A program made the position numbers and the translations under genes. Positions 5,380-44,957 of a DNA stretch of 45,704 nt are shown piece after piece. Source of the DNA: Candidatus Yanofskyibacteriota bacterium (lineage in GTDB: Bacteria > Patescibacteriota > Minisyncoccia > 2-02-FULL-40-12 > GWA2-44-9); contig JACPAB010000001.1 of NCBI GenBank assembly GCA_016181045.1, positions 1 to 45,704 of the forward strand, given 5' to 3'. Every line of letters begins with the position of its first letter. Position 1 is the stretch's first letter. The notes beneath the pieces are model-generated. The model made no database searches, was not told where the DNA came from, and saw nothing but the letters and a program-made list of their open reading frames with translations.

Positions 5380-5403
5380 TTTTTTAACTGGTCATAACAT
5401 AGA

Positions 5404-5468
5404 GATTAGGACTTAGCCAGTAGAACTTAGAATCAGATTCTAATGGCTAAAAACTAATGGCTAATTAC
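5404..5468. repeat. Intergenic palindromic repeat, copy 1 (TTAGCCANTAGAACTTAGAA ... TTCTAATGGCTAA)
   Basis: Same inverted-repeat unit recurs near 8749, 20639 and 33131. Confidence 0.75.
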
Positions 5469-5593
5469 TATCAATTAAAAACCTAACAATCGCCACCAGA
5501 TTGTCCCCAGATAAAATCATAAATTAGGTGATATTTTAATCCGTTCAGCACGCGGGAAGAGTGGGCGTGTGTGTTTTTGTTGTCATACGAACT

Positions 5594-8500: not shown

Positions 8501-8749
8501 GGTAAAGCCCAATTCGGGGGCCAGAGATTCGGAGAAATGGAAGTGTGGGCCTTGGAAGGATACGGGGCCGCCCACACCCTGCAAGAAATGCTGACCATCA
8601 AGTCCGATGATGTTCTGGGCCGCGCGAAGACGTATGAATCGATCGTGAACGGGGAAGAAATAAAAGCGCCGCATTTACCGGAGTCATTCAAGGTATTATT
8701 GTCCGAAATTAAAGGTCTGGCTTTGAACGTGGAACTTTTAGAGAAGTGA
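5594..8749 (+). CDS. rpoB: DNA-directed RNA polymerase subunit beta
   Basis: Full-length RpoB; signature [25 protein letters not shown]. Likely start at internal ATG 5594 ([18 protein letters not shown]) rather than 5561. Confidence 0.97.
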
Positions 8750-8815
8750 TTAGGATTTAGCCATTAGAACTTAGAATAATTTCTAATAACTACTGGCTAA
8801 TAACTAATGGCTAAT
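8749..8815. repeat. Intergenic palindromic repeat, copy 2, abutting the rpoC start codon
   Basis: gattaggatttagccattagaacttagaa...ttctaataactactggctaataactaatggctaat directly before tATG. Confidence 0.75.
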
Positions 8816-8816
8816 T

Positions 8817-11800
8817 ATGGACTTATCATCGATAAAACTTAAGCTCGCGTCGCCGGAGGACATAATGTCCTGGTCTTACGGAGAGGTTACCAAGCCGGAA
8901 ACCATCAACTACCGAACGCAGAAGCCCGAGAGGGAAGGTCTTTTTTCCGAGGCCATTTTTGGTCCGACCAAGGACTGGGAGTGTTATTGCGGCAAATACA
9001 AAAGGATCCGGTATAAGGGCATCATCTGCGACAGGTGCGGTGTCGAAGTTACCCGCTCAATAGTCAGAAGAGAGAGAATGGGTCACATTAAGCTGGCCGC
9101 TCCGGTCGCTCATATTTGGTTCCTGCGGGGCGTGCCTTCGAAAATCGCCGCAATCCTGGGCGTTTCTCTCCCTGACCTGGAGAAGGTTATTTATTTCGCA
9201 AGCTATGTCGTAACCAAAGTGAACGAGGACTTGAAAGCCGAGGCCATGAAGAGGATCGAATCCGAGTTCAAATCGAAACTCAAGAACGCTAAGAACGAAG
9301 AGGGGCGGGAGAATTTGAAGGAACTTAAAGACAGGGAGAAGAACAGTTTAAAAAATCTCATAAAATACCAAATCATATCCGAACTGGACTTCAGGGATCT
9401 CTCTTTGAAATATGGAGAAGTGTTCGAGGCCAGGATCGGCGCCGAAGGCGTCAGACATTTGCTGGAAGAAATGAATCTCGAGGATCTTATCCAAGAACTC
9501 GAAGGAGATCTAAGTAACGAGGTAAATCCTCTGGAACAGAGAAAGGTTGCCCGCCGGCTCAAGTTTGCTAAGGGTATGCTCAAGGCCGGTATCCGGCCGG
9601 AATGGGCCATTATGACCACTTTGCCGGTAATTCCTCCGGCGTTGCGGCCGATGGTTCCGCTTGACGGCGGCAGATATGCCACCTCGGATCTCAACGATTT
9701 ATACAGACGGGTCATAAACAGAAACAACCGTCTGAAACATTTGCTTGAATTGAAAGCCCCGGAAGTCATCACCAAGAATGAAAAGAGAATGCTTCAGGAA
9801 GCGGTTGACGCCTTGATAGACAATTCCATGAGAAGGGGGCAGGTTACGACCGCCGCATCGACCGGCCAAAAGAGGGCTTTGAAGTCATTGGCCGATATGC
9901 TCAAGGGCAAGCAGGGCAGATTCAGGCAGAACTTGCTCGGAAAGCGCGTGGACTATTCAGGCCGTTCGGTTATCGTCATCGGAGCGGAACTTGGCATTGC
10001 CGAGTGCGGACTGCCCAAACACATGGCTTTGGAACTGTTCAAACCGTTCGTTATTGGAATTCTTATAAAGAAAGAGCTTGCCCACAATATAAAATCGGCG
10101 ACCCGTTTGATAGAACAGGAAACCCCGGATGTCTGGGCCGCATTGGAAGAGGCGATGCACGAGAAGTTGGTATTGCTCAATCGTGCTCCGACTTTGCACC
10201 GTCTCTCCGTGCAGGCCTTCAAGCCGGTCCTTATCGAAGGTAAAGCCGTCAAGATCCCGGCCCTGCCGACTCACGCCTTTAACGCCGACTTTGACGGAGA
10301 CCAGATGGCCGTTCACTTGCCCCTGACCAATGAAGCCCAGACGGAAGCAAGAGAACTGATGCTGGCCAGCCACGGAATATTGAAGCCGGCAACCGGAGAA
10401 CCGGTTGCCACGCCAAGCCATGATATGTCGTTCGGCATTTATTATCTGACCAGCGTTCTGGAGGGAGCAAAAGGCCAGGGTAAAATATTTTCTTCCCGGT
10501 ATGAAGCGCTTTTATCTTTTGAGAACGATTTTACCGATCTAAGAGCCGTTATAAAAGTTCCCAATCCGGATTATAACCCGCCTTCGCCTGATGGCTTTGG
10601 CGAGGCAAAGCCGAAAATGATAGAGACGACTCCAGGCCGGATGATATTCAATAAAACCCTGCCTAAAGGGCATAAATATGTCAACAAAATTCTAACCAAG
10701 CCCGATTTGAAAATGATCGGTTCGGATATTTGGGATGAATATGGAGAAGAAACTACCGTCGAATTTTTAGACGCGATTAAAGATCTCGGTTTCCACTATG
10801 CGACTGTCTCGGGCATCTCCTGGGGATTGAATGACCTGAAGATCCCTCCCGAGAAGCCGCAGATAATTGCCGAGTCCGAAAAACTTATCGAAGAAAACGG
10901 GCAACTCTACGAAGACGGTCTCCTTACCGAATACGAGAGAAGGTCCAAGGCCATCGAGATCTGGAACGAGACCAAGTCCAAGCTTTCCGACTTGGTCAAG
11001 AAACAGGTTTCCGACCAGGACCCGGCGTTCCTTATCGTTGACTCCAAATCCAGAGGCAACTGGTCGGTGCTTGACCAGATGATGGGCATGAGAGGCATCT
11101 TCGTGAATCCGGCCGGAGAGTTCATTGAACTTCCCGTAAAAAATTCTTTGAAAGAAGGCCTTACCTCGCTTGAATACTTTATTTCAACCCATGGCGCCCG
11201 AAAAGGTCTGGTGGACACCGCCTTAAAGACGGCAACCGCCGGATACCTGACCAGGCGTTTGGTTGATGTTGCCCAAGATGTCGTCATCACCGAAGACGAC
11301 TGCAAAGACAAGGAGGGCTACACGCTTTATGCCGAGGACTCCAAGTTCAGCGGCGAGTCATTGGGCAGGAGAGTGAAGGGCCGCGTAGTGATGGAAGATA
11401 TTGTTGATGCCAACGGGGAAGTTGTGGTTAAGAAAAGCAAGATAGTCGACAAGGAAGCATCAAAGAAAATAGAGGACCTTAAGCTCGCCAAGATAAGGAT
11501 CCGGTCCCCGATAAAGTGCAAATCACCCAACGGCATCTGCCGCCTTTGCTACGGATACGATTTGTCAAAAAATAAGATGGTCGACATCGGCGAAGCCGTG
11601 GGTATCGTGACCGCGCAGGCCATCGGAGAACCGGGAACCCAGCTGACGATGAGGACATTCCACACCGGCGGCGTTGCCGGCGGCGCGGACATTACAATGG
11701 GATTGCCTCGGGTCGAAGAGATATTTGAAGTTCGACCGCCCACATTTAAAGCCCTAATTGCTGACGTGAACGGCAAAGTATTATCCGTCCAAGATACAGG

Positions 11801-12793: not shown

Positions 12794-13396
12794 ATGTCAG
12801 ATTTCGATCTCACCTACACCCAGACCGGCGATCTCGGCAACAAAATCGGCGGACAGGAAGGTGCCAAAGGCATTCTCTCCGGTGAGCTCGTTGTGGTGAA
12901 GAGAAGCGAGGCCAACCGCCGCTGGATCAAGATTGACGAGAACACCATCGCGGTGGACCTTGAGTCCAGCCCCGGCCTGCCCTTCGCCGGCGCCCAGGTC
13001 GAGAAGCATATCGGTGTTGGCGGCGCGATCTTCCAGAAGCAGGCCGACGGTCTGTATCGAAACGGCCGCAAGGTGGGTCTCCACCTCTCCGGGCGTCAGA
13101 AGGGCGGCAAGGTCGTGAAGGGCTATGAGCTCCGCGACGAGCTCACCGGCAAGCCGGTGCTCAACGCGAATGAGCTCGACGCCCTCTACGACAACCCCCA
13201 TCTCCTCCCCGAGGAATGGAAGCGGGACGAGAACGGCAACATCCGCTTCATCTTCTTCTGGGGGACGATCTACCGCAACTCGGACGGCGGCCTGTACGTC
13301 CGGTACATCTACTTCGACGGCGGGTCGTGGGACCGGGTCTTCAGCTGGCTCGACCGCGGCTGGCGTGGCAACGACCCGGCGGCGCTCGCAAGTTAA
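12794..13396 (+). CDS. DGR target (variable) protein
   Basis: 200 aa ORF with SD and strong promoter; C-terminal VR (NSDGGLYVRYIYFDGGSWDRVFSWLDRGWRGNDPAALA) is an A-substituted version of the TR; GGSW motif. Confidence 0.93.
   Translation: MSDFDLTYTQTGDLGNKIGGQEGAKGILSGELVVVKRSEANRRWIKIDENTIAVDLESSPGLPFAGAQVEKHIGVGGAIFQKQADGLYRNGRKVGLHLSGRQKGGKVVKGYELRDELTGKPVLNANELDALYDNPHLLPEEWKRDENGNIRFIFFWGTIYRNSDGGLYVRYIYFDGGSWDRVFSWLDRGWRGNDPAALAS
13272..13391 (+). repeat. DGR variable repeat (VR)
   Basis: 120 bp ungapped alignment to TR 13765..13884; 15 differences fall on TR adenines, plus one G/C difference near the 3' end. Confidence 0.96.
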
Positions 13397-13431
13397 GTCC
13401 TTGGGACTTGGCTTCTTGGTCAGCGTTGACC
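13395..13431 (+). other. Hairpins immediately 3' of VR
   Basis: AAGTCC-TTG-GGACTT (13395-13409) and GGTCA-gcgt-TGACC (13418-13431). Confidence 0.7.
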
Positions 13432-13496
13432 TTGGATCCTTGGCCCTTGGAGCGGCGAATAAAATCGCTGCAACGCTTTGGAGATATGCGTCAACT

Positions 13497-13528
13497 CCAG
13501 GCCCGTGCAGAAATGCCGGGCCTTTTAA
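13497..13528 (+). terminator. Terminator of the DGR target gene
   Basis: aGGCCCGtgcagaaatgcCGGGCCttttaaat. Confidence 0.7.
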
Positions 13529-13531
13529 ATT

Positions 13532-13541
13532 CTGATATAAT
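13532..13541 (+). promoter_or_regulatory. Putative extended -10 promoter for the TR RNA
   Basis: TGaTATAAT upstream of the TR region; no clear -35. Confidence 0.45.
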
Positions 13542-13764
13542 GATCTTGGAACTAGGTGAATATGCGGGAGATCAAGGTTTCCCGCTACCGAAACCAGTAT
13601 CCATATAACCCAGAGTATCTCTGACTATGGTTTGAGGTAGTGTGGTATATGCGAACTCAAAAACAAAAGAAACTTGGTATAGGGCGTTAAGGTATTACGA
13701 TACCAAATGCGATACAGCTCTGAGAGTATTCAATGGGCAGTGGTATGGAAGACGCTCTATACAC

Positions 13765-13884
13765 ACCGCAACTCGAACGGCAACCTGTACGTCCGGTACA
13801 TCTACTTCAACGGCGGGTCGTGGAACCGGAACTACAACTGGCTCGACAACGACTGGAATGGCAACAACCCGGCGGCGGTCGCAA
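13765..13884 (+). repeat. DGR template repeat (TR)
   Basis: AAC-rich template; see VR. Confidence 0.96.
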
Positions 13885-13894
13885 ATCTCTTACG

Positions 13895-13922
13895 TTCTCT
13901 CCCTACTTATCGGGAGAGTTTT
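13895..13922. other. Hairpin downstream of TR that also contains the avd stop codon
   Basis: CTCTCCC-TACTTATC-GGGAGAG-TTTT. Confidence 0.65.
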
Positions 13923-14250
13923 GTTTCTGAAGCTGACCGCTCCAGCCCCCGATCATTTTCCCTATCTCGTTAATCTTAGTCGATAGAGCTATATATTTCT
14001 TGCTGTCGAGCGACTTTGTCTCCCAAAGGATCATGAGGAGTATCCGCAGCACATCCAGTTTCCGAATAGCTACATTAACGTAGGGCAGTTTGTCGTGTCG
14101 AGGCAGAAAGCTTGCGGTTGCGACTGCTTCTATGATTTCGATAAAATAATTATCGATCCGCTGCCCAAGCGAGTGTTTGTGGGTTTTGGGTATGGTCTGA
14201 TAGTATTCATACCAAACCAAATAAGCGCTTTTGGTCTTTTGTAAAAGCGG
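13903..14250 (-). CDS. avd: DGR accessory variability determinant (Avd-like), N-terminus out of frame with an ATG
   Basis: Frame reads LPLLQKTKSAYLVWYEYYQTIPKTHKHSLGQRIDNYFIEIIEAVATA...LRILLMILWETKSL...INEIGKMIGGWSGQ, Avd-like. The ORF track start at 14220 is TTG and lacks LPLLQKTKSAY. Confidence 0.85.
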   Translation of the reverse strand, partial: PLLQKTKSAYLVWYEYYQTIPKTHKHSLGQRIDNYFIEIIEAVATASFLPRHDKLPYVNVAIRKLDVLRILLMILWETKSLDSKKYIALSTKINEIGKMIGGWSGQLQKQNSPDK

Positions 14251-14261
14251 AAGTGAAGGTT

Positions 14262-14273
14262 GGGGGGGGGGGG
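14262..14273. repeat. G12 homopolymer between divergent avd and RT
   Basis: ggttGGGGGGGGGGGGcgtaac. Confidence 0.9.
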
Positions 14274-14285
14274 CGTAACTGGTGT

Positions 14286-15263
14286 ATGAAAATCAGGTTT
14301 ACTCATAGTTACGAAAGCGTTATATCTTTGGAAAATCTCCTCGAAGCGTGGAAAGAGTTTATCATCGGGAAGAGGTCTCGTAAAGATGTCCAAGAATTCG
14401 AGTTAAATCTGATGGGCAACATCATAGATCTTCATGAAGACCTTACTGCGAAAACCTACTCACACTCCGCCTATGAACCTTTCAATATTTCTGACCCAAA
14501 ACCGCGCAGAATCCACAAATCATTGGTCCGGGACCGGTTGCTCCACCATGCCATTTATCGGCAACTTTATCCATTTTTCGATAAGACATTCATTGCCGAT
14601 TCGTATTCATGCCAGATTAATAAAGGGACACATAAGGCCTTGAATCAATTTCGAGAATTTGGGCATATCGCTTCCAAAAATCACACCAAAACCGTCTGGG
14701 TTCTGAAATGCGATATCCGAAAGTTCTTTGCCAGTATTGACCACGCGGTGCTTTTGGAAATTTTAAGAACGCATATCGATGACGACGACATCATTTGGCT
14801 GCTTGAGAGGATTGTCGGTAGTTTTAACAGCGGCAAACCGAGGACTGGCTTGCCGCTCGGTAATCTTACTTCGCAGCTATTGGTTAACATATACATGAAT
14901 GAGTTTGACCAATTTATGAAGCATCGGATGAAAATTAGATACTATATCCGTTACGCGGATGACTTTGTGGTCTTGTCTCAAGATAAAGCATGGCTCGAAG
15001 AGTTGTTGCCGAAAATTGCTGACTTTCTTTCGGAGCGGCTCAAACTGGACCCGCATCCTGACAAGATCTCAATCCGCACTCTTTCTTCGGGTATCGATTT
15101 TTTGGGCTGGGTTCATTTTCCGGACCATAGGGTTTTGAGGACTGTAACAAAAAGAAGAATGATGAAAAGAATTAAAGAAAACCCCAGACCAGAGGTGATG
15201 AATTCTTATCTTGGTTTACTGAAGCATGGGAATACACAAAAGTTAAGAAAAAGATTGATTTGA
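14286..15263 (+). CDS. DGR-type reverse transcriptase
   Basis: RT motifs incl. YIRYADDF and GLPLGNLTSQLLVNIY (DGR-type GxxxSQ). ORF can also start at GTG 14253, upstream of and reading through the G12 tract. Confidence 0.95.
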   Translation: MKIRFTHSYESVISLENLLEAWKEFIIGKRSRKDVQEFELNLMGNIIDLHEDLTAKTYSHSAYEPFNISDPKPRRIHKSLVRDRLLHHAIYRQLYPFFDKTFIADSYSCQINKGTHKALNQFREFGHIASKNHTKTVWVLKCDIRKFFASIDHAVLLEILRTHIDDDDIIWLLERIVGSFNSGKPRTGLPLGNLTSQLLVNIYMNEFDQFMKHRMKIRYYIRYADDFVVLSQDKAWLEELLPKIADFLSERLKLDPHPDKISIRTLSSGIDFLGWVHFPDHRVLRTVTKRRMMKRIKENPRPEVMNSYLGLLKHGNTQKLRKRLI

Positions 15264-20423: not shown

Positions 20424-20633
20424 TTATTTAACCGTTTGGCTACGGGTATACGGCATCAATGCCATATATCTGGCGAGTTTTACCGCGTCGGCTATCTTCC
20501 TTTGGTGTTTATTGCAAAGCTTGTTCCTTCGGGATGTCGCAATCTTAAACTGTGAAGTAACATACTTCCTTAGGAATTGAGTGTTCTTGTAGTCCACTCT
20601 GTTTATATTATCTTGGCAAAACTGACAATTCAA
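20424..20633 (-). CDS. rpsR: 30S ribosomal protein S18
   Basis: CQFCQDNINRVDYKNTQFLRKYVTSQFKIATSRRNKLCNKHQRKIADAVKLARYMALMPY. Confidence 0.93.
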   Translation of the reverse strand: MNCQFCQDNINRVDYKNTQFLRKYVTSQFKIATSRRNKLCNKHQRKIADAVKLARYMALMPYTRSQTVK

Positions 20634-20638
20634 ATTAG

Positions 20639-20699
20639 TGATTAGAACTTAGCCAATAGAACTTAGAACTAAATACTAATGGCTAATAACTAATGGCTA
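20639..20699. repeat. Intergenic palindromic repeat, copy 3
   Basis: gattagaacttagccaatagaacttagaa...actaatggctaataactaatggctag; its end supplies the ssb stop codon. Confidence 0.75.
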
Positions 20700-21239
20700 G
20701 AAAGGCAGGTCTTCTTCTTTTATTTTCATTTCGTCTTCTTCGACCCCGGCATTCATCGGTTCGTTCTCGTCTATTATCGGAATATCTGCGTCTTTGACGG
20801 GACCAGCTTTTTTGATATCGGCCATCGGCTCGCCTCGCGAAGCGGGGCTTTCGTTCGAATATGCGGCTCCTGCCGGTGATCGGAGTGAGGCATCGCCCAC
20901 TCCTGGGGAACTCTGTCGAGGCCCCAACTGAAGGTTCTCGGCGATTATCTCGGTGATATATTTTTTGACGCCGCTTGAATCGGTCCAGTTCCTGGTCTGG
21001 AGCCGGCCTTCTATCATGACCAGCCCGCCCTTTTTAAGATATTGTGTCGCAACATCCGCCAGGCGGCCCCAGGCAATAACGGTATGGTATTCGGTGGCGT
21101 CTTTGCGCTGGCCGGAAGGATCTTTCCAGACCCGATTGGTGGCCATTCTAATGGTGGCGACACTCTGTCCGCTCGGAATAGATCTGGAATCCGGGTCTTG
21201 GGTTAATCTTCCTATTAATACTACCTTATTTAAATTCAT
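20697..21239 (-). CDS. ssb: Single-stranded DNA-binding protein
   Basis: MNLNKVVLIGRLTQDPDSRSIPSGQSVATIRMATNR; acidic tail EEDLPF. Start inferred at 21239. Confidence 0.94.
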   Translation of the reverse strand: MNLNKVVLIGRLTQDPDSRSIPSGQSVATIRMATNRVWKDPSGQRKDATEYHTVIAWGRLADVATQYLKKGGLVMIEGRLQTRNWTDSSGVKKYITEIIAENLQLGPRQSSPGVGDASLRSPAGAAYSNESPASRGEPMADIKKAGPVKDADIPIIDENEPMNAGVEEDEMKIKEEDLPF

Positions 21240-21980: not shown

Positions 21981-22032
21981 ATCCCGTACGAAGCAGAAGC
22001 ACGCTGCGGGCCCTCGCGGCTTCGTACGGGAT
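21981..22032. repeat. 52 bp palindromic element, family B, intergenic copy
   Basis: ATCCCGTACGAAGcagaagcacgctgcgggccctcgcggCTTCGTACGGGAT; second copy at 31555..31606 inside an oppA-like gene. Confidence 0.85.
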
Positions 22033-22584: not shown

Positions 22585-23640
22585 TTAGATCTTGATTTCC
22601 ACCACATCTCCTTCTCGAATTATATAGTCGCGGCCGACGGTACGAAGAAGGCCTTTAGAGCGGGCGGGAGCATACCCGCCGGATTCGAGGAGCGTTTTCC
22701 AGTTTATCACTTCGGCCCGGATGAATAACTTTTCAAAATCGGTATGGATGGCGCGGGACGCTTTCGGTATAAAGTCGCCGATGTGCGCGGTCCATGCCCG
22801 GCTCTCGTCTTCTCCTGTTGTGAGAAATGTAACAAGGCCGAGAGTTTTATACGCTTTTTTTATAAGCTGGTCCAAACCGCTCTCTTTTATTCCGAATTCT
22901 GTTAGATATTCTTTTTTTTCGTCTGCAGTTGATTCCGAAAGAAGCAGTTCCAGAGGCGTGGATAGAACGACATAGTCCCTTCCGGCCATCGCTTTTAGCA
23001 AATCAGGCCCAGGTTGCCAGCCGTCAGACATTTGGGACTCGGAAACATTTAGAACAAAAATTACCTTTTTCCCGGTTAGTAAATTCAATTCTGGTAATTT
23101 TGATATCTGATTTATTTCACGATCGTGTAATAAATCAGATTTTGTTTTTACCTTCTTTTCTCGTTTTTCCTTTGTTTCGAGGTCGGCCAGCTCGAGCTCC
23201 GTTTGAATTATCTCGATGTCGTCGGCCGGGCTTGCCCCGTTAGAAGTAGGTCGCCCAGGGCGACCGTCAGTTCTAACGGGGTCGATTTTGTTGTCATATC
23301 TAATTACATTTTCATTCTCAAAAACCCGGACAACATGGGCGATGGCGTCCACTTCTCTGATATTGGCCAAAAACTTGTTTCCCAGCCCTTCGCCCTGGGC
23401 CGCGCCTTTGACCAGACCGGCGATGTCGAAGAAGTCGATGGTCGTATAGATCTTTTTCTTTGAATCGGACAGCAAGGACAGAGCATCCACCCTCTCATCG
23501 GGCACGGCAACAACACCCACATTCGGGTCGATAGTCGTGAAGGGATAATTCTGTATATCCACTTGTTTGTTGGTCAGGGCCTTGAACAGCGTTGACTTGC
23601 CGACATTAGGCAAACCCACGATTCCTATGGATAATGGCAT
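22585..23640 (-). CDS. ychF: GTP/ATP-binding protein YchF
   Basis: SIGIVGLPNVGKSTLFKALT; C-terminal TGS-like domain. Confidence 0.95.
   Translation of the reverse strand: MPLSIGIVGLPNVGKSTLFKALTNKQVDIQNYPFTTIDPNVGVVAVPDERVDALSLLSDSKKKIYTTIDFFDIAGLVKGAAQGEGLGNKFLANIREVDAIAHVVRVFENENVIRYDNKIDPVRTDGRPGRPTSNGASPADDIEIIQTELELADLETKEKREKKVKTKSDLLHDREINQISKLPELNLLTGKKVIFVLNVSESQMSDGWQPGPDLLKAMAGRDYVVLSTPLELLLSESTADEKKEYLTEFGIKESGLDQLIKKAYKTLGLVTFLTTGEDESRAWTAHIGDFIPKASRAIHTDFEKLFIRAEVINWKTLLESGGYAPARSKGLLRTVGRDYIIREGDVVEIKI
23105..23140. repeat. 36 bp palindrome, family C, in frame in ychF
   Basis: ATCTGATTTATTtCACGATCGTGtAATAAATCAGAT. Confidence 0.88.
23235..23281. repeat. 47 bp palindromic element, family A, in frame in ychF
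   Basis: CCCCGTTAGAA..GGTCGCCC-a-GGGCGACC..TTCTAACGGGG; encodes VRTDGRPGRPTSNG. Confidence 0.88.
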
Positions 23641-28247: not shown

Positions 28248-28283
28248 TTATTATTTATGTATCCTACGATACATAAATAATAA
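28248..28283. repeat. Palindrome upstream of the PaaX/Cas2-like gene, 16 bp arms with 4 nt loop
   Basis: TTATTATTTATGTATC-ctac-GATACATAAATAATAA; overlaps a TTGACT-17-TACGAT promoter. Confidence 0.92.
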
Positions 28284-28293
28284 TGAGGGAATA

Positions 28294-28851
28294 ATGAGTG
28301 AGAACAAGGAAAAATCAAAATTTATTCACCAATTTGCCAAAGTGATGTTGGAGATAGGGAAAACAAGCGGGTATATTATAGCCGATATCTTTGAGGTTTG
28401 GGCCACGACTTCATATAAAGGTGTGAGAATGAAAGAAAAAATAAATTATGATTTTCCTAGTTATCGTCGCGGTCTATACAATCTTAAAAACAGGGGATTG
28501 GTGAATATAAACGGTCAGAAGGTGAGCATGACCGGCAAAGGCCGGATTTGGCTTAAAACATCATATCTCAAACACCTAAGGATCCTTCATCCGAAGTGGG
28601 ACGGCAAGTGGCGGGTAGTGATTTTTGACATACCCCAAGAACTGCACACAAACAGAAATCGTTTTAGACGGAAATTAAAATCGTTGGGGTTCTTTCTCTT
28701 ACAAAAAAGCGTTTTGGTAATTCCATATCCGTGTGAAGAGGATCTCGCCGAGATTTGCGTTAATTTTAAGATTTCTGACTATGTTGATGTGATTGTTGCC
28801 GACTCCATCGGCTCTCGAAAAGAAGAGGTTAAGAGATTCTTTGAACTTTGA
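28294..28851 (+). CDS. PaaX-like / Cas2-like domain protein
   Basis: WDGKWRVVIFDIPQELHTNRNRFRRKLKSLGFFLLQKSVLVIPYPCEEDLAEI; N-terminal wHTH-like segment. Confidence 0.75.
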   Translation: MSENKEKSKFIHQFAKVMLEIGKTSGYIIADIFEVWATTSYKGVRMKEKINYDFPSYRRGLYNLKNRGLVNINGQKVSMTGKGRIWLKTSYLKHLRILHPKWDGKWRVVIFDIPQELHTNRNRFRRKLKSLGFFLLQKSVLVIPYPCEEDLAEICVNFKISDYVDVIVADSIGSRKEEVKRFFEL

Positions 28852-28860
28852 GTCGAATTT

Positions 28861-28900
28861 TATGATTATTTCTGTATCGTACGATACAGAAATAATCATA
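28861..28900. repeat. Perfect 40 bp palindrome downstream of the PaaX/Cas2-like gene
   Basis: TATGATTATTTCTGTATCGT|ACGATACAGAAATAATCATA. Confidence 0.95.
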
Positions 28901-31034: not shown

Positions 31035-32828
31035 TTACTCCCAGCCTCTCTTGGTTTCCATATACCACTTTTCAATGTTCGCGAATCTGTCCGACGGCAT
31101 GGATATGATCTTGCTTTCAAAGCCCCGGATGTCTTTGGTCTGGCCGTAAATATAGTATGAGTTATACAGGAACACTGCCGGCGCGTCTTCGATCACTAAT
31201 TTTTGGAATTCATCGTATTTTTGCGCCCGCTCCAGCGGATTGAGTATCTTTCTGGCTTCTTCAAGCAATGTGTCGGCGGTCTTGTTGCTGTATAGAGCCA
31301 GGTTCAATCCCGGATCGCGCCTTTGTGAAGAGTGCCAAAGCGTGAACGGGTCAGGATCAAGGGTCAGTATTTCTCCGAAAAGCAGCATTTGGTAGTTCCT
31401 TTCTTTGATGGCTCTTTGCAGTTCCGGCGTAGGTAGTATCTCAACTTCAATATTCACTCCCACTTTGGCCCATTGCTCCTTGAGCGCATTTGCTACGGCG
31501 ACTAATTCCGGCCAGGTTGACGTGGTCAGTTTCAGGTCTATTTTCTTTCCGTTCATCCCGTACGAAGTAGAGGCGCGCTGCGAGCCCTCGCGACTTCGTT
31601 CGGGATTCAGCAGCTTATTGGCCTGATCAAGGTCGAAAGGATATGTCTTAACGTCGCTGTTGATGTCCAAAATGTTTCCCACCATCGGCGAGGCGACCGA
31701 TTCGCCCTTGCCTTCCAATATCTTCGAGAGCAACTCATTTTTGTCGGTGGCGTGGTTCAAGGCCAGGCGGATATTCTTGTCGGCCAGCTCTTTCGACTGG
31801 TCTTGATTGAAGAACACTCCGAAATATCTGGGCATTTTGAGTTCGCGGACATTCAGCCGCCTTTTGAATTTTATTTTCTTTAAGTTGGGTCCCGAAACGA
31901 AAGAGATATTTTCGATGCTGTTTTTGTTGTAGGCATCTATCATCGCGTCTTCCGAATCAAAGAACCTGAACCCGATACGATCTATATGAGACCGGCCAAG
32001 ATAGAACTTCTCGTTGACTGCCAGCTCATATTCTCTGACTCTTCCGAGCGTATCTTTCTTGAGCTTGGCGAATTTATACGGGCCGGAGCCGATGGGCTTC
32101 AGGTTCAAATCGGCCTGGCCGAAATTTATCGGTTTGATGTCCTGCCAGGCATGCTTGGGCAGTATCCTGATGGTAAAATTATTTACGAACTGGGCATATC
32201 TTTCTTTCAGTTTGAATATTATGGTGTAGTCGTTAACTTTGTCCGTCTCAACTCCCTGCCAGTTGACCCTCTGCTGGCTTCCGTAATCGGGGTTTTGGGC
32301 GGTTTGGACGGTGAATACGACATCATCCGCGGTAACAGCCGTACCATCGTGCCAAAAGACGTTATCTCGGAGATAGATAGTATAATTCAGCCCATCGCTG
32401 GAAACCTCATATGACTTAGCCAGGTCGGGGATGAGCTTCCCTGCCTCGTTGTATTTCATGAGTCCCGAATAAATAAGCGAGGTCAGGTCCCTGTCCGCAT
32501 CGTTGCTTTGTGAAAGCAGAGGGTTGATAAGCCGGGGCTCTCCGACCATGCCTTCGGTGAAAGACCCGCCATTATCCGGTACGCCCGTTGTGTAATGGTA
32601 AAAAGATGTGAACGGGATAGAGATGACCGAACCGAGCATTACCAGAGCAAAAATAAATATCAAATAGCGCTCTTTGTTGGAGAGGACTTTCGGGATCAGG
32701 CGTAATTTATTGCGCTCAACGCTCTTAAGAAGAGAGTCCTTGATGCCTTCTTTGTGTCTGGCGGAAGGACCTTCTTTTTCGGACTTTAAACCGAAAAAAT
32801 CGTCGAGCTGGTTATTATCCTGGAGCAC
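31035..32828 (-). CDS. ABC-type peptide transporter substrate-binding protein (family 5, OppA/DppA-like)
   Basis: SYEVSSDGLNYTIYLRDNVFWHDGTAVTADDVVFTVQ. Confidence 0.9.
   Translation of the reverse strand: MLQDNNQLDDFFGLKSEKEGPSARHKEGIKDSLLKSVERNKLRLIPKVLSNKERYLIFIFALVMLGSVISIPFTSFYHYTTGVPDNGGSFTEGMVGEPRLINPLLSQSNDADRDLTSLIYSGLMKYNEAGKLIPDLAKSYEVSSDGLNYTIYLRDNVFWHDGTAVTADDVVFTVQTAQNPDYGSQQRVNWQGVETDKVNDYTIIFKLKERYAQFVNNFTIRILPKHAWQDIKPINFGQADLNLKPIGSGPYKFAKLKKDTLGRVREYELAVNEKFYLGRSHIDRIGFRFFDSEDAMIDAYNKNSIENISFVSGPNLKKIKFKRRLNVRELKMPRYFGVFFNQDQSKELADKNIRLALNHATDKNELLSKILEGKGESVASPMVGNILDINSDVKTYPFDLDQANKLLNPERSREGSQRASTSYGMNGKKIDLKLTTSTWPELVAVANALKEQWAKVGVNIEVEILPTPELQRAIKERNYQMLLFGEILTLDPDPFTLWHSSQRRDPGLNLALYSNKTADTLLEEARKILNPLERAQKYDEFQKLVIEDAPAVFLYNSYYIYGQTKDIRGFESKIISMPSDRFANIEKWYMETKRGWE
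31555..31606. repeat. 52 bp palindromic element, family B, in frame in the oppA-like gene
   Basis: ATCCCGTACGAAGTagaggcgcgctgcgagccctcgcgACTTCGTtCGGGAT; encodes PERSREGSQRASTSYG. Confidence 0.88.
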
Positions 32829-33130: not shown

Positions 33131-33200
33131 AATTAGTGATTTAGGACTTAGCCATTAGGACTTAGAATTTCTAATTTCTATTGGCTAATTACTAATGGCT
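33131..33200. repeat. Intergenic palindromic repeat, copy 4
   Basis: aattagtgatttaggacttagccattaggacttagaa...ttctattggctaattactaatggct fills the gap between secG and the next gene. Confidence 0.75.
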
Positions 33201-33588: not shown

Positions 33589-35046
33589 TCAATATTGACC
33601 AAGAGACCTCCGGTGGAGGCGGCGGTAATAAGTGATGGCGAAACGGTGGGCTTCGGCGTCGATGCTTTTAATAAGATTACGGACATTTTGCGGGAGCTTT
33701 GACATCGAGACGGGTTTTTCCAGGGTGGTCGAGAATATCTCATATTTACCTTTAGCCAAAGCAATGATTGGGATTTGAGATTTAGGATTTTTGATTTGTT
33801 TGCTCGGAGAAGGTTCACGGTGCTTTAGCCCGGGAATCTCTGTAGGATTTAGAAATTTGGATTTAGAAATTGCCGCTCTAGCGGCGTTGAGCTGGCCTTT
33901 GCCGCCGTCTATGAGTATCAAGTCCGGGAATGACCACTCGTCATGTTTGAGACGGCGCTCCAAGACCTCCCGGAGCATTCCGGTATCTCCGCTTGGAATC
34001 TGATTTATACTACGATCGTGAAATAAAGCAGATCTTGTTTTTGTAATTCTCGCTCTTATTTTAAACTTGCGGTAGAGGTTCTTGTCCGGCCGACCGCTGA
34101 TGAACGTGACCATGGCGCCTGTGGCATTTGTGCCCTGGATATTGGAAACGTCGTAGCCCTCTATGCGATATGGTACGCGGTCTAATTTTAATAGGCGGGC
34201 TAATGCTTTTAGGGTGTTTTGTGCTCTGACGTCGTTTTCAGTATTAAGTATACCGTATTTAGTATTACGAATAATTTTAGCGTTTTCGAAAACTCTCTTT
34301 AGTTTCTCTATTTTGTCGCGCAATTCTATTGCTTCCTGAAATTTTTCTTCTTTCCCGAGTTTTATCATTTCTTTTTCCAGGTTTTTCACTAGAGAGGTTT
34401 TCTTTCCCGACAAGATTTTCTTAATCGCTTTGATGCCATCTTTATATATTACACCATAATACGATCGTGGTGAGGTGTAAGATGGTGGCATGAGTGCTTT
34501 TGGTTCATTGTCTTTTAAGCAACAAACGCCGAGGCACTTTCCTATATGATAGTTCAAGCAGAAGTTGTTGTGCGGATTTTTACAGGTGCAATAGGGGAAT
34601 ATTTTTCTTAGGAATTTTAATGTTGATTTAAGAACGGCTCCGTCAGTAAACGGGCCAACAGAATCGGATATTTCAATATTTAAATATTTAAATATGCGTG
34701 GTTGATGAGTGAGAAAAATTTTAGGAAATTTTTCGTGAGTGAAAACCACGTAGAAGTATTGTTTGTCGTCCCGCATTACGATATTGAATCTTGGCTGCAG
34801 GTTCTTTATTAGTTGAGATTCGAGTATCAACGCTTCGATGTCGGATTCAGTGACCCTGAATTCCAGACTGTTCGCGGTCGAGACCATTTTTTGTATCCTT
34901 GGGTCCGTTGTTTTTAAATACGAACGCAGGCGCGCTTTTAAGTTTGCCGCTTTTCCTATGTATATTTTCTTGCCTTCTTCTTTGAACATATAAATTCCGG
35001 GGGAAGAAGGCGATCCGGAAATAATTTTTGCCAAGAGGTCGCTTGT
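33589..35046 (-). CDS. uvrC: Excinuclease ABC subunit C, lacking a recognisable C-terminal HhH
   Basis: GSPSSPGIYMFKEEGKKIYIGKAANLKARLRSYL; IEGYDVSNIQGTNATGAMVTF; DLILIDGGKGQLNAA. Confidence 0.93.
   Translation of the reverse strand, partial: TSDLLAKIISGSPSSPGIYMFKEEGKKIYIGKAANLKARLRSYLKTTDPRIQKMVSTANSLEFRVTESDIEALILESQLIKNLQPRFNIVMRDDKQYFYVVFTHEKFPKIFLTHQPRIFKYLNIEISDSVGPFTDGAVLKSTLKFLRKIFPYCTCKNPHNNFCLNYHIGKCLGVCCLKDNEPKALMPPSYTSPRSYYGVIYKDGIKAIKKILSGKKTSLVKNLEKEMIKLGKEEKFQEAIELRDKIEKLKRVFENAKIIRNTKYGILNTENDVRAQNTLKALARLLKLDRVPYRIEGYDVSNIQGTNATGAMVTFISGRPDKNLYRKFKIRARITKTRSALFHDRSINQIPSGDTGMLREVLERRLKHDEWSFPDLILIDGGKGQLNAARAAISKSKFLNPTEIPGLKHREPSPSKQIKNPKSQIPIIALAKGKYEIFSTTLEKPVSMSKLPQNVRNLIKSIDAEAHRFAITYYRRLHRRSLGQY
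33772..33872. repeat. AT-rich inverted-repeat element in frame in uvrC
   Basis: ggatttgagatttaggatttttgatttg ... ggatttagaaatttggatttagaaatt; similar motifs to the 4976..5105 repeat; encodes SKFLNPTEIPGLKHREPSPSKQIKNPKSQIP. Confidence 0.5.
33998..34033. repeat. 36 bp palindrome, family C, in frame in uvrC
   Basis: ATCTGATTTATActACGATCGTgaaATAAAGCAGAT; cf. ychF copy. Confidence 0.85.
34449..34480. repeat. 32 bp palindrome with ACGATCGT core, in frame in uvrC
   Basis: TTACACCataatACGATCGTggtgAGGTGTAA. Confidence 0.75.
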
Positions 35047-43274: not shown

Positions 43275-44957
43275 ATGGAAACAAAATTTATCTTTGTTGC
43301 TGGTGGGGTCATGTCGGGGATAGGCAAGGGCGTTACTGTCTCTTCTACGGCGAGAATTCTCAAGGACTATGGCTTTCGTGTTACGGCCGTGAAGATAGAC
43401 CCTTATCTTAATGTTGACGCCGGCACGATGAACCCCACCGAACACGGCGAGGTTTTTGTGACAGATGACGGTTGTGAATGCGACCAGGATGTTGGCAACT
43501 ACGAGAGATTTCTCGACGAGAATATTTACAAGGATAACTATATGACTTCCGGTCTGGTGTATAAGTCAGTGATAGACCGAGAGAGAAATCTTGGCTACGC
43601 CGGTAAGTGTGTTCAAATAATTCCCCACATCACTGATGAAGTGGAAAATCGGCTGATGAAAGTTGCCAAAAAACAAAAAGCTGATTTTGTTCTCGTTGAA
43701 ATAGGCGGAACGGTGGGCGAGTATGAAAACTTATTATTCCTTGAGACCGGCAGAATAATGAAACTAAAAATGCCCGGTCATGTCTTGTTTTTACTTGTCA
43801 GTTATTTCCCGATTCCTGATATGATAGGCGAAATGAAAACAAAGCCGACCCAGCATGCGGTCCGCGCGCTTAACTACGCCGGTATCCAACCCGACATTAT
43901 CATTGCCCGCTCAACACAGCCGTTGGATGAAATAAGAAAGAACAAGGTCTCTATTTTCTGCAACTTGGATGTTAAAGATGTGATATCCGCTCCGGATTTC
44001 AAGGGCTCAATATACGAGATTCCGGTTAATTTTGAGAAAGATAATTTGGGAAAAAGAATTTTGGAAAAATTAGGCATCAAGTCGCGCTCTAAAAAATCAA
44101 ACAAGTGGGATTTGATGGTTAAAAACATAAAAAGCGCGGCTAAACCGGTCAAAATAGGCATAGTGGGTAAATATTTCGGTACAGGCGACTTCACTCTAGC
44201 CGACTCGTACCTATCTGTAATAGAGGCGGTCAAGCATGCCGCCTGGTCTTTGAAAAGAAAACCGGAAATTACCTGGCTTAGCGCCGAGAATTATGAAAAG
44301 GACCCGGCTGTCTTGGAAGAATTAAAAAATTTCGATGGTGTTATCGTACCGGGTGGATTTGGCAAAAGGGGAGTTGAAGGCAAGATCGCCGCAATCAAAT
44401 ATGTCCGGGAAAATAACATTCCTTTTCTTGGGTTATGCTATGGATTGCAATTAGCGGTTGTGGAATTTGCCAGAAACGCCTGCGGCCTTGAAGATGCTCA
44501 TACTTCCGAAGTAAATCCGGATACGTCACGGCCGGTAATATGCACGATGCCGGATCAGTTAGTGAATATTAAAGAAAAAAGGATGGGCGGTTCTATGCGC
44601 CTCGGAGAGTATAAATGCAAATTAACCCCACAAGCCACAAGCTATAAGCTCTATGCTAAAAGCCTGATTTCCGAACGCCACCGCCATCGCTACGAGGTAA
44701 ATAACCACTACCGCTTGAAGTTGGAAAAAGAGGGAATGCTCGTTGCCGGCACTCATCCCATTAGAACTAACGGTCGTCTGGGACGACCTACTTCTAACGG
44801 GACAGGTCCACAAAAAAACTTAATTGAAATTATAGAAATCCCGGAACACAAGTTTTTTGTTGCCACTCAATTCCATCCGGAATTCAAGTCGCGGCCTCTC
44901 ACGCCGCATCCATTATTTGTCGGGTTGATAAAATCAGCGTCAGGGGTTAAAATTTAA
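43275..44957 (+). CDS. pyrG: CTP synthase
   Basis: KFIFVAGGVMSGIGKGVTVSSTARIL; GAT domain PFLGLCYGLQLAVVEFARN; FFVATQFHPEFKSRP. Confidence 0.96.
   Translation: METKFIFVAGGVMSGIGKGVTVSSTARILKDYGFRVTAVKIDPYLNVDAGTMNPTEHGEVFVTDDGCECDQDVGNYERFLDENIYKDNYMTSGLVYKSVIDRERNLGYAGKCVQIIPHITDEVENRLMKVAKKQKADFVLVEIGGTVGEYENLLFLETGRIMKLKMPGHVLFLLVSYFPIPDMIGEMKTKPTQHAVRALNYAGIQPDIIIARSTQPLDEIRKNKVSIFCNLDVKDVISAPDFKGSIYEIPVNFEKDNLGKRILEKLGIKSRSKKSNKWDLMVKNIKSAAKPVKIGIVGKYFGTGDFTLADSYLSVIEAVKHAAWSLKRKPEITWLSAENYEKDPAVLEELKNFDGVIVPGGFGKRGVEGKIAAIKYVRENNIPFLGLCYGLQLAVVEFARNACGLEDAHTSEVNPDTSRPVICTMPDQLVNIKEKRMGGSMRLGEYKCKLTPQATSYKLYAKSLISERHRHRYEVNNHYRLKLEKEGMLVAGTHPIRTNGRLGRPTSNGTGPQKNLIEIIEIPEHKFFVATQFHPEFKSRPLTPHPLFVGLIKSASGVKI
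44758..44801. repeat. 44 bp palindromic element, family A, in frame in pyrG
   Basis: CCCATTAGAACTAACGGTCGTCtgGGACGACCTACTTCTAACGGG; encodes IRTNGRLGRPTSNG. Confidence 0.88.

Follow-up and report, generated by a model that had tools for sequence, protein, structure and literature searches.

PaaX is a DNA-binding repressor, and the Cas2/PaaX family is so far known for repressors and for components of CRISPR adaptation; to our knowledge, no Cas2/PaaX-like protein has been recognized as a DNA mover. Two described systems provide the closest comparisons for the architecture and behavior analyzed here. In REP-RAYT-REP units, a single gene is located between two short palindromes (PMC2817692), and Rickettsia palindromic elements (RPE) are in-frame palindrome insertions in unrelated protein-coding genes, to which they add a peptide (PMC10969869). 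The window (the whole analyzed stretch of 45,704 nucleotides from a Candidatus Yanofskyibacteriota bacterium, contig JACPAB010000001.1) and the rest of the source genome (G000; 457,497 bp, 84.6% complete, all contigs scanned) contain 36-bp palindromes that are found both inside conserved genes and in pairs around small genes for Cas2/PaaX-like proteins (Table 1). With a probability of about 0.7, we consider these palindromes to be the mobile units of very small, REP/RAYT-like elements of Patescibacteria with a Cas2/PaaX-like putative mobiliser.

Table 1. Palindromes and associated genes in the window and, where a contig is given, elsewhere in the source genome
Feature	Position	Strand	Basis
Lone 36-bp ACGATCGT palindrome in ychF	23105..23140	-	sequence and genomic copies
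Left-hand palindrome of the element in the window, TGTATCCTACGATACA; one deviation from the core CGTACG	28248..28283	+	
P0001, 185 aa, winged helix and PaaX_M/Cas2-like domain; putative mobiliser of its own palindrome family	28294..28851	+	PF20803 E 1.1e-21, AlphaFold model
Right-hand palindrome of the element in the window (40 bp, no mismatch), core CGTACG	28861..28900	+	
Lone 36-bp ACGATCGT palindrome in uvrC	33998..34033	-	sequence
Second ACGATCGT palindrome in uvrC, other arms (TTACACC..GGTGTAA)	34447..34482	-	sequence, genome scan
ACGATCGT palindromes on either side of a PaaX_M gene	C6:6519 and C6:7149		genome scan
Further ACGATCGT palindrome in miaA	C6:45807		genome scan
Y1 transposase (RAYT-like) gene, bounded by inverted ATCAAGGTTCGACCT / TATCAAGGTTCGACCTCGGTT repeats; separate palindrome system	G000:C9:12130-12807		
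Y1 transposase (RAYT-like) gene, no shared flank repeat	G000:C8:5978-6754		

The palindromes that a preliminary description of the window placed in ychF and uvrC are confirmed in both coordinates and translation, and have the common form ATCTGATTTAT..ACGATCGT..ATAAATCAGAT. The ychF copy (ATCTGATTTATTTCACGATCGTGTAATAAATCAGAT) forms 17 of 18 pairs and translates in frame as SDLLHDREINQI, in a loop about 39-42 nt longer than in most orthologues. The first uvrC copy (14 of 18 pairs, in-frame peptide SALFHDRSINQI) lies past YRKFKI in a loop that has 48 nt more than in orthologues such as that of G010; the genomes G009 and G001 have inserts in this loop too. A second uvrC site was suggested to combine the same ACGATCGT centre with different arms, and it does (TATTACACCATAATACGATCGTGGTGAGGTGTAAGA, 13 of 18 pairs); this palindrome is in frame with uvrC, is read in a different palindrome frame (peptide YTSPRSYYGVI) and occupies a variable loop that is missing from most orthologues. 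Comparison with orthologues from 26-27 genomes of the family identifies the ychF, uvrC and miaA palindromes as extra segments in tolerant loops. Relative to most orthologues, the inserts amount to 39-48 nt, not exactly 36, and no exact nucleotide-level empty site for any of the three was found among these family orthologues because they are too divergent and the loops are hypervariable. In uvrC and miaA, inserts are located at the same position in different genera, which is compatible with either shared ancestry or a tolerant spot. Another in-frame palindromic element, of about 53 bp, is present in ychF and pyrG (23228-23280 and 44757-44809, 83% complementary; peptide RT(D/N)GR(P/L)GRPTSNG), so that ychF carries two different palindromic inserts. 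The UvrC and MiaA loops of relatives also contain peptides such as NSKFKILNSKF, encoded by repeats that look similar to the TTAGAACTTAG / CTAATGGCTAA arrays dispersed in intergenes and gene ends of the window (5400-5476, 8744-8826, 20622-20712 and 33135-33200).

As an 8-mer by itself, ACGATCGT is rejected as an enriched signal, the counts in the window (3 vs 0.69 expected, a value of 3 being reached in 6 of 100 shuffles) and in the genome (8 vs 3.2-5.6 expected) being non-significant. Enrichment of ACGATCGT-centred palindromes, the test to which the preliminary description had tied its proposal beforehand, holds: six of the eight genomic sites are centres of palindromes in which 13 or more of 22 symmetric positions pair. 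The proposal that the core, rather than the arms, is the determinant also looks right, the core being the same on the left and on the right in 86 of 97 element pairs; some pairs (L048, L209) have only the core in common and differ in their arms, like the second uvrC site. The idea of one mobile-type palindrome family in several copies and the role assigned to the core are retained, but the RAYT/Y1 transposase or resolvase expected as partner gives way to a different protein. The gene between the two ACGATCGT palindromes on contig C6 (C6:6590-7138, within a full element at C6:6519-7184) encodes a winged-helix-like region followed by a PaaX_M, Cas2-like domain (PF20803, E 4.9e-20).

The P0001 gene of the window is a sister of this ACGATCGT-lineage gene, which lies outside the window. 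The source genome encodes six genes of the PaaX_M-type family, one of them in the window, and each of the six lies between palindromes with a common core (CGTACG, CGTACG with other arms, GTCGTATATACGAC, CCTAGG, CTTAAG and CGATCG). Two further lone 36-bp palindromes in this genome have a CATATG centre (G000:C3:106521-106556, in frame in a membrane protein ORF) and a CAGCTG centre (G000:C3:97423-97458); genes matching these were not found in G000, the assembly of which is incomplete. A palindrome of the form ATTCTCATATTCT(T/C)(G/A)AGAATATGAGAAT, for which a linked gene was not identified, is present in four copies (G000:C3:18973, C3:81270, C3:127294 and C8:19889).

Detectable relatives are present in 18 of the 28 genomes of the family (Ca. 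Yanofskybacteria; 0-6 copies), and of 286 genomes from Patescibacteria, 92 have PF20803, the maximum being 11 copies per genome; among 14 well-known control genomes, the only one with PF20803 is that of Sulfolobus acidocaldarius (one copy). A scan of 84,980 species genomes detects at least 549 relatives, the best 80 of which are nearly all from Patescibacteria. In phages there is no match to P0001, viral contigs contain one relative, and the matches in plasmids are weak and come from actinobacterial records. A repeat common to the left and right flanks (score of 15 or more) accompanies 84.6% of 78 family genes vs 3.2% of 124 control ORFs, that is, other ORFs in the same loci, and the flank repeats of the family genes are nearly always palindromes; about 20% of the short family genes (e.g., in G003, G004 and G022) have no shared flank repeat. 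Across 97 well-defined pairs, both the symmetry and the left/right identity stop at 18 bases on either side of the centre, which gives a unit of 36 bp. A CNNNNG centre is found in 171 of the 194 palindromes (CGATCG 60, CATATG 42, CGGCCG 27, CGTACG 17, CAATTG 13), positions 10-18 form the arms, and positions 5-9 are more variable. The centre-to-centre distance is 551-872 bp (median 638 bp), and the right palindrome follows the stop codon and sometimes includes it. These 97 pairs show no excess of matching flanking k-mers that would indicate target duplication. Palindrome similarity tracks protein similarity with r of 0.32 (permutation standard deviation 0.027; maximum of 500 permutations 0.086), that is, by more than ten permutation standard deviations.

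A Pfam search with the bounded gene identifies PaaX_M (PF20803) along with weak HTH and Cas2 matches, and no Y1_Tnp. In the AlphaFold2 model of P0001 (mean pLDDT 82.6), the N-terminal part is helical/winged and the C-terminal domain has a ferredoxin-like fold. Among solved folds, E. coli PaaX (8a39; Z 10.1, 166 aligned residues, rmsd 7.2) is the nearest, followed by Cas2 (Z 9.5, 71 aligned residues, rmsd 3.0), with these structure-library matches dominated by residues 102-185 and barely covering the rest of the fold. Five residues are invariant in 66 sequences (D103, D112, Q137, S139 and C147), none of them His or Tyr; C147 is missing from P0002 and hence is not universal. The D112 residue belongs to an FDIP motif that aligns to the start of Cas2 profiles and could be either catalytic or structural in the mobiliser candidate. 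Scores fall below the equivalog cut-offs for both PaaX (TIGR02277, 29 and 44 bits vs 264.55) and Cas2 (TIGR01573, 23.3 and 18.7 bits vs 24.5).

The mobility of the elements is well supported. In one Moraniibacteriota MAG, two copies at different loci are 97% identical over 784 bp, and the identity extends 15 and 4 nt beyond the palindromes; a premature stop interrupts one of the copies, and no lone copies of that arm set are present in this genome. Within one genus, the smpB-cysS intergene contains an element with the core CGGCCG in G311, a different element with the core TGGCCA in G312, a lone CGGCCG palindrome with no gene in G313, and nothing in G189. Despite this differing occupancy, an exact empty site was not obtained from these four genomes because the intergenes are too divergent, and no exact occupied/empty pair at the nucleotide level was found among the sites compared. 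The L287/L289 pair was considered as a case of transposition and rejected, the two loci being orthologous. Lone ACGATCGT copies number 19 in six family genomes, and 17 of these are inside open frames of ychF, uvrC, miaA (two sites), a trmH-like gene, tgt, a FemAB-like gene and others (host names other than the first three were read off the translations). The same HDR/YDR frame is used in 15 of the 17; given that the usual ACGATCGT variants have a single stop-free frame of three per strand and that 36 nt correspond to 12 codons, survival bias explains this shared frame. In G000, G001 and G013, the lone copies correspond to the ACGATCGT palindromes on either side of the cognate gene in the same genome (the cognate genes of G001 and G013 are 73% identical to that of G000); in G009, G014 and G015, lone ACGATCGT copies are present and a cognate gene was not detected.

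The following scheme is proposed. A full, autonomous-type element would consist of a gene for a protein of 160-205 aa between two 36-bp palindromes that have the same core; lone 36-bp palindromes would be non-autonomous copies, those in ychF, uvrC and miaA belonging to the ACGATCGT lineage. The protein, probably a dimer in which the Cas2-like domains pair and the winged helices read the arms, would recognize the CNNNNG-centred palindrome and cause it to be copied or transferred to new sites without target duplication, as proposed for RAYTs and REPs, such that palindromes could be mobilised alone or as a pair around the gene. Inserts in frame would persist in a tolerant surface loop, as a peptide of the type S(D/Y)L(F/Y)HDR(S/E)IN, and autoregulation via the left palindrome may also occur. 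The mobiliser role of the PaaX_M protein is suggested by its association with the palindromes; we infer that this protein, rather than a host or other enzyme, catalyzes the movement, and its dimeric state and chemistry are likewise putative.

The rival explanation that the gene is an ordinary PaaX-type repressor, with the flanking palindromes as its operators and the dispersed copies as regulatory sites or relics, appears unlikely. It fits with PaaX being the nearest solved relative, with the usual location of the left palindrome just 5' of the start codon, and with the co-variation of palindromes and protein, but leaves unexplained the second palindrome past the stop codon and the lone copies within the coding frames of ychF, uvrC, miaA and other genes. 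Furthermore, the flanking pair is found in none of the 7 long, PaaX-sized members (over 205 aa) vs 68 of the 87 short ones, the copies are unevenly distributed (0-11 per genome), and occupancy varies between orthologous intergenes. An operator function of the left palindrome can coexist with mobility.

Somewhat less probable still is site-specific recombination, whereby the palindromes would be recombination sites through which the element integrates, possibly by means of host Xer, and lone palindromes would be solo sites left after recombination of the flanking ones. Symmetric arms around a 6-bp centre, the absence of target duplication and the observation that lone copies often join two different half-sites at the core are all compatible with such a mechanism. 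However, for copies in conserved genes that are probably essential, a 640-bp insertion would first have had to be survived, the core varies between lineages, and the unit contains no recombinase gene. As a component of the mobile-element scheme, recombination between flanking palindromes would leave single ones behind and can account for the mixed half-sites and for some of the lone copies in intergenes; it is not an easy explanation for the copies in essential genes.

Mobilisation of the palindromes as REPs by a RAYT/Y1 transposase is very improbable. The source genome does encode two Y1_Tnp proteins, and REP-RAYT-REP units share their overall architecture with the present elements (PMC2817692), but this option is largely refuted by the flanks of both Y1_Tnp genes, which differ from those described here and contain no ACGATCGT palindromes; moreover, the bounded gene has neither a Y1_Tnp match nor, among the 66 sequences, an invariant His or Tyr. 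Chance palindromes or terminators, conceivable in a genome with many terminator-type palindromes, are refuted by the scan (69 palindromes of all kinds at the threshold in the real genome vs 0 in a first-order Markov genome), by the cores common to both flanks and by the in-frame dispersal in several genera.

The source genome contains additional repeats and elements. The region 12794-15263 of the window looks like a diversity-generating retroelement, with a 120-nt repeat (87% identical) at 13272-13391, the 3' end of an ORF, and, 493 nt further downstream, at 13765-13884; a reverse transcriptase ORF (14253-15263) comes next. Two ORFs at the contig start (15-551 and 907-1380) are both homing endonuclease-like, the latter with a LAGLIDADG-like motif AGFLDGDGS, and perhaps belong to a broken rRNA intron region. 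A 52-bp palindromic direct repeat, ATCCCGTACGAAGCAGAAGC..GGCTTCGTACGGGAT, is present at 21981-22032 and 31555-31606 (88% identical), one copy being inside the ORF 31035-32828. Contigs C3, C4 and C5 of the source genome contain many ATTTAAATATTTAAATATT palindromic or tandem runs, and AAATATTT occurs 69 times.

The elements share with RAYT/REP a gene bounded by two palindromes that are also found alone elsewhere, co-evolution of palindrome and protein, and the absence of a target duplication signal. They differ from these IS200/IS605-type systems in that the bounded gene lacks the Y1 HUH domain and encodes a winged-helix and Cas2-like protein instead, in that the palindromes are 36-mers, symmetric about a CNNNNG centre and often intragenic rather than extragenic, and in the copy number, a handful per genome, not hundreds. 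Similarity to RPE is one of behavior, namely in-frame palindromic insertions in unrelated protein genes; the RPE unit is about 100-150 bp vs 36 bp in Patescibacteria, where the palindromes have an identifiable candidate autonomous partner. The protein shares the N-terminal winged helix and PaaX_M domain, and the closest solved fold, with PaaX repressors, but is only 160-205 aa long, lacks the PaaX C-terminal region and is encoded by multi-copy genes with palindromes on both sides. With CRISPR Cas2, it has in common the ferredoxin-like fold and the invariant Asp of the Cas2-like FDIP motif; unlike Cas2, the domain is fused to a winged helix, is encoded alone between palindromes and scores under the equivalog cut-off. 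The lack of target site duplication in the 97 pairs distinguishes the elements from classical MITEs and DDE insertion sequences.

In the open-access literature, we found no description linking PaaX- or Cas2-like proteins to palindromes or mobile elements in Patescibacteria. The behavior is REP/RAYT- and RPE-like, but the bounded protein has no relationship to Y1 transposases and the unit is different. On balance, and with considerable reserve, we favor a new class of mobile elements: 36-bp palindromes with a CNNNNG centre would be mobilised by a winged-helix protein of Cas2/PaaX type that lacks any known transposase or recombinase domain. Such elements would be among the smallest autonomous ones known and might connect Cas2, PaaX repressors and transposition in evolutionary terms. 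A mobiliser role would make the protein, at less than about 200 aa, a novel type of mobilising enzyme, with a bearing on the question of how Cas2 became a DNA-integration partner. For the streamlined genomes of Patescibacteria, the proposed scheme implies a widespread mobile element that alters conserved proteins via 12-codon in-frame insertions, and would offer a simple explanation for the many small, lone Cas2/PaaX-like genes in these genomes.
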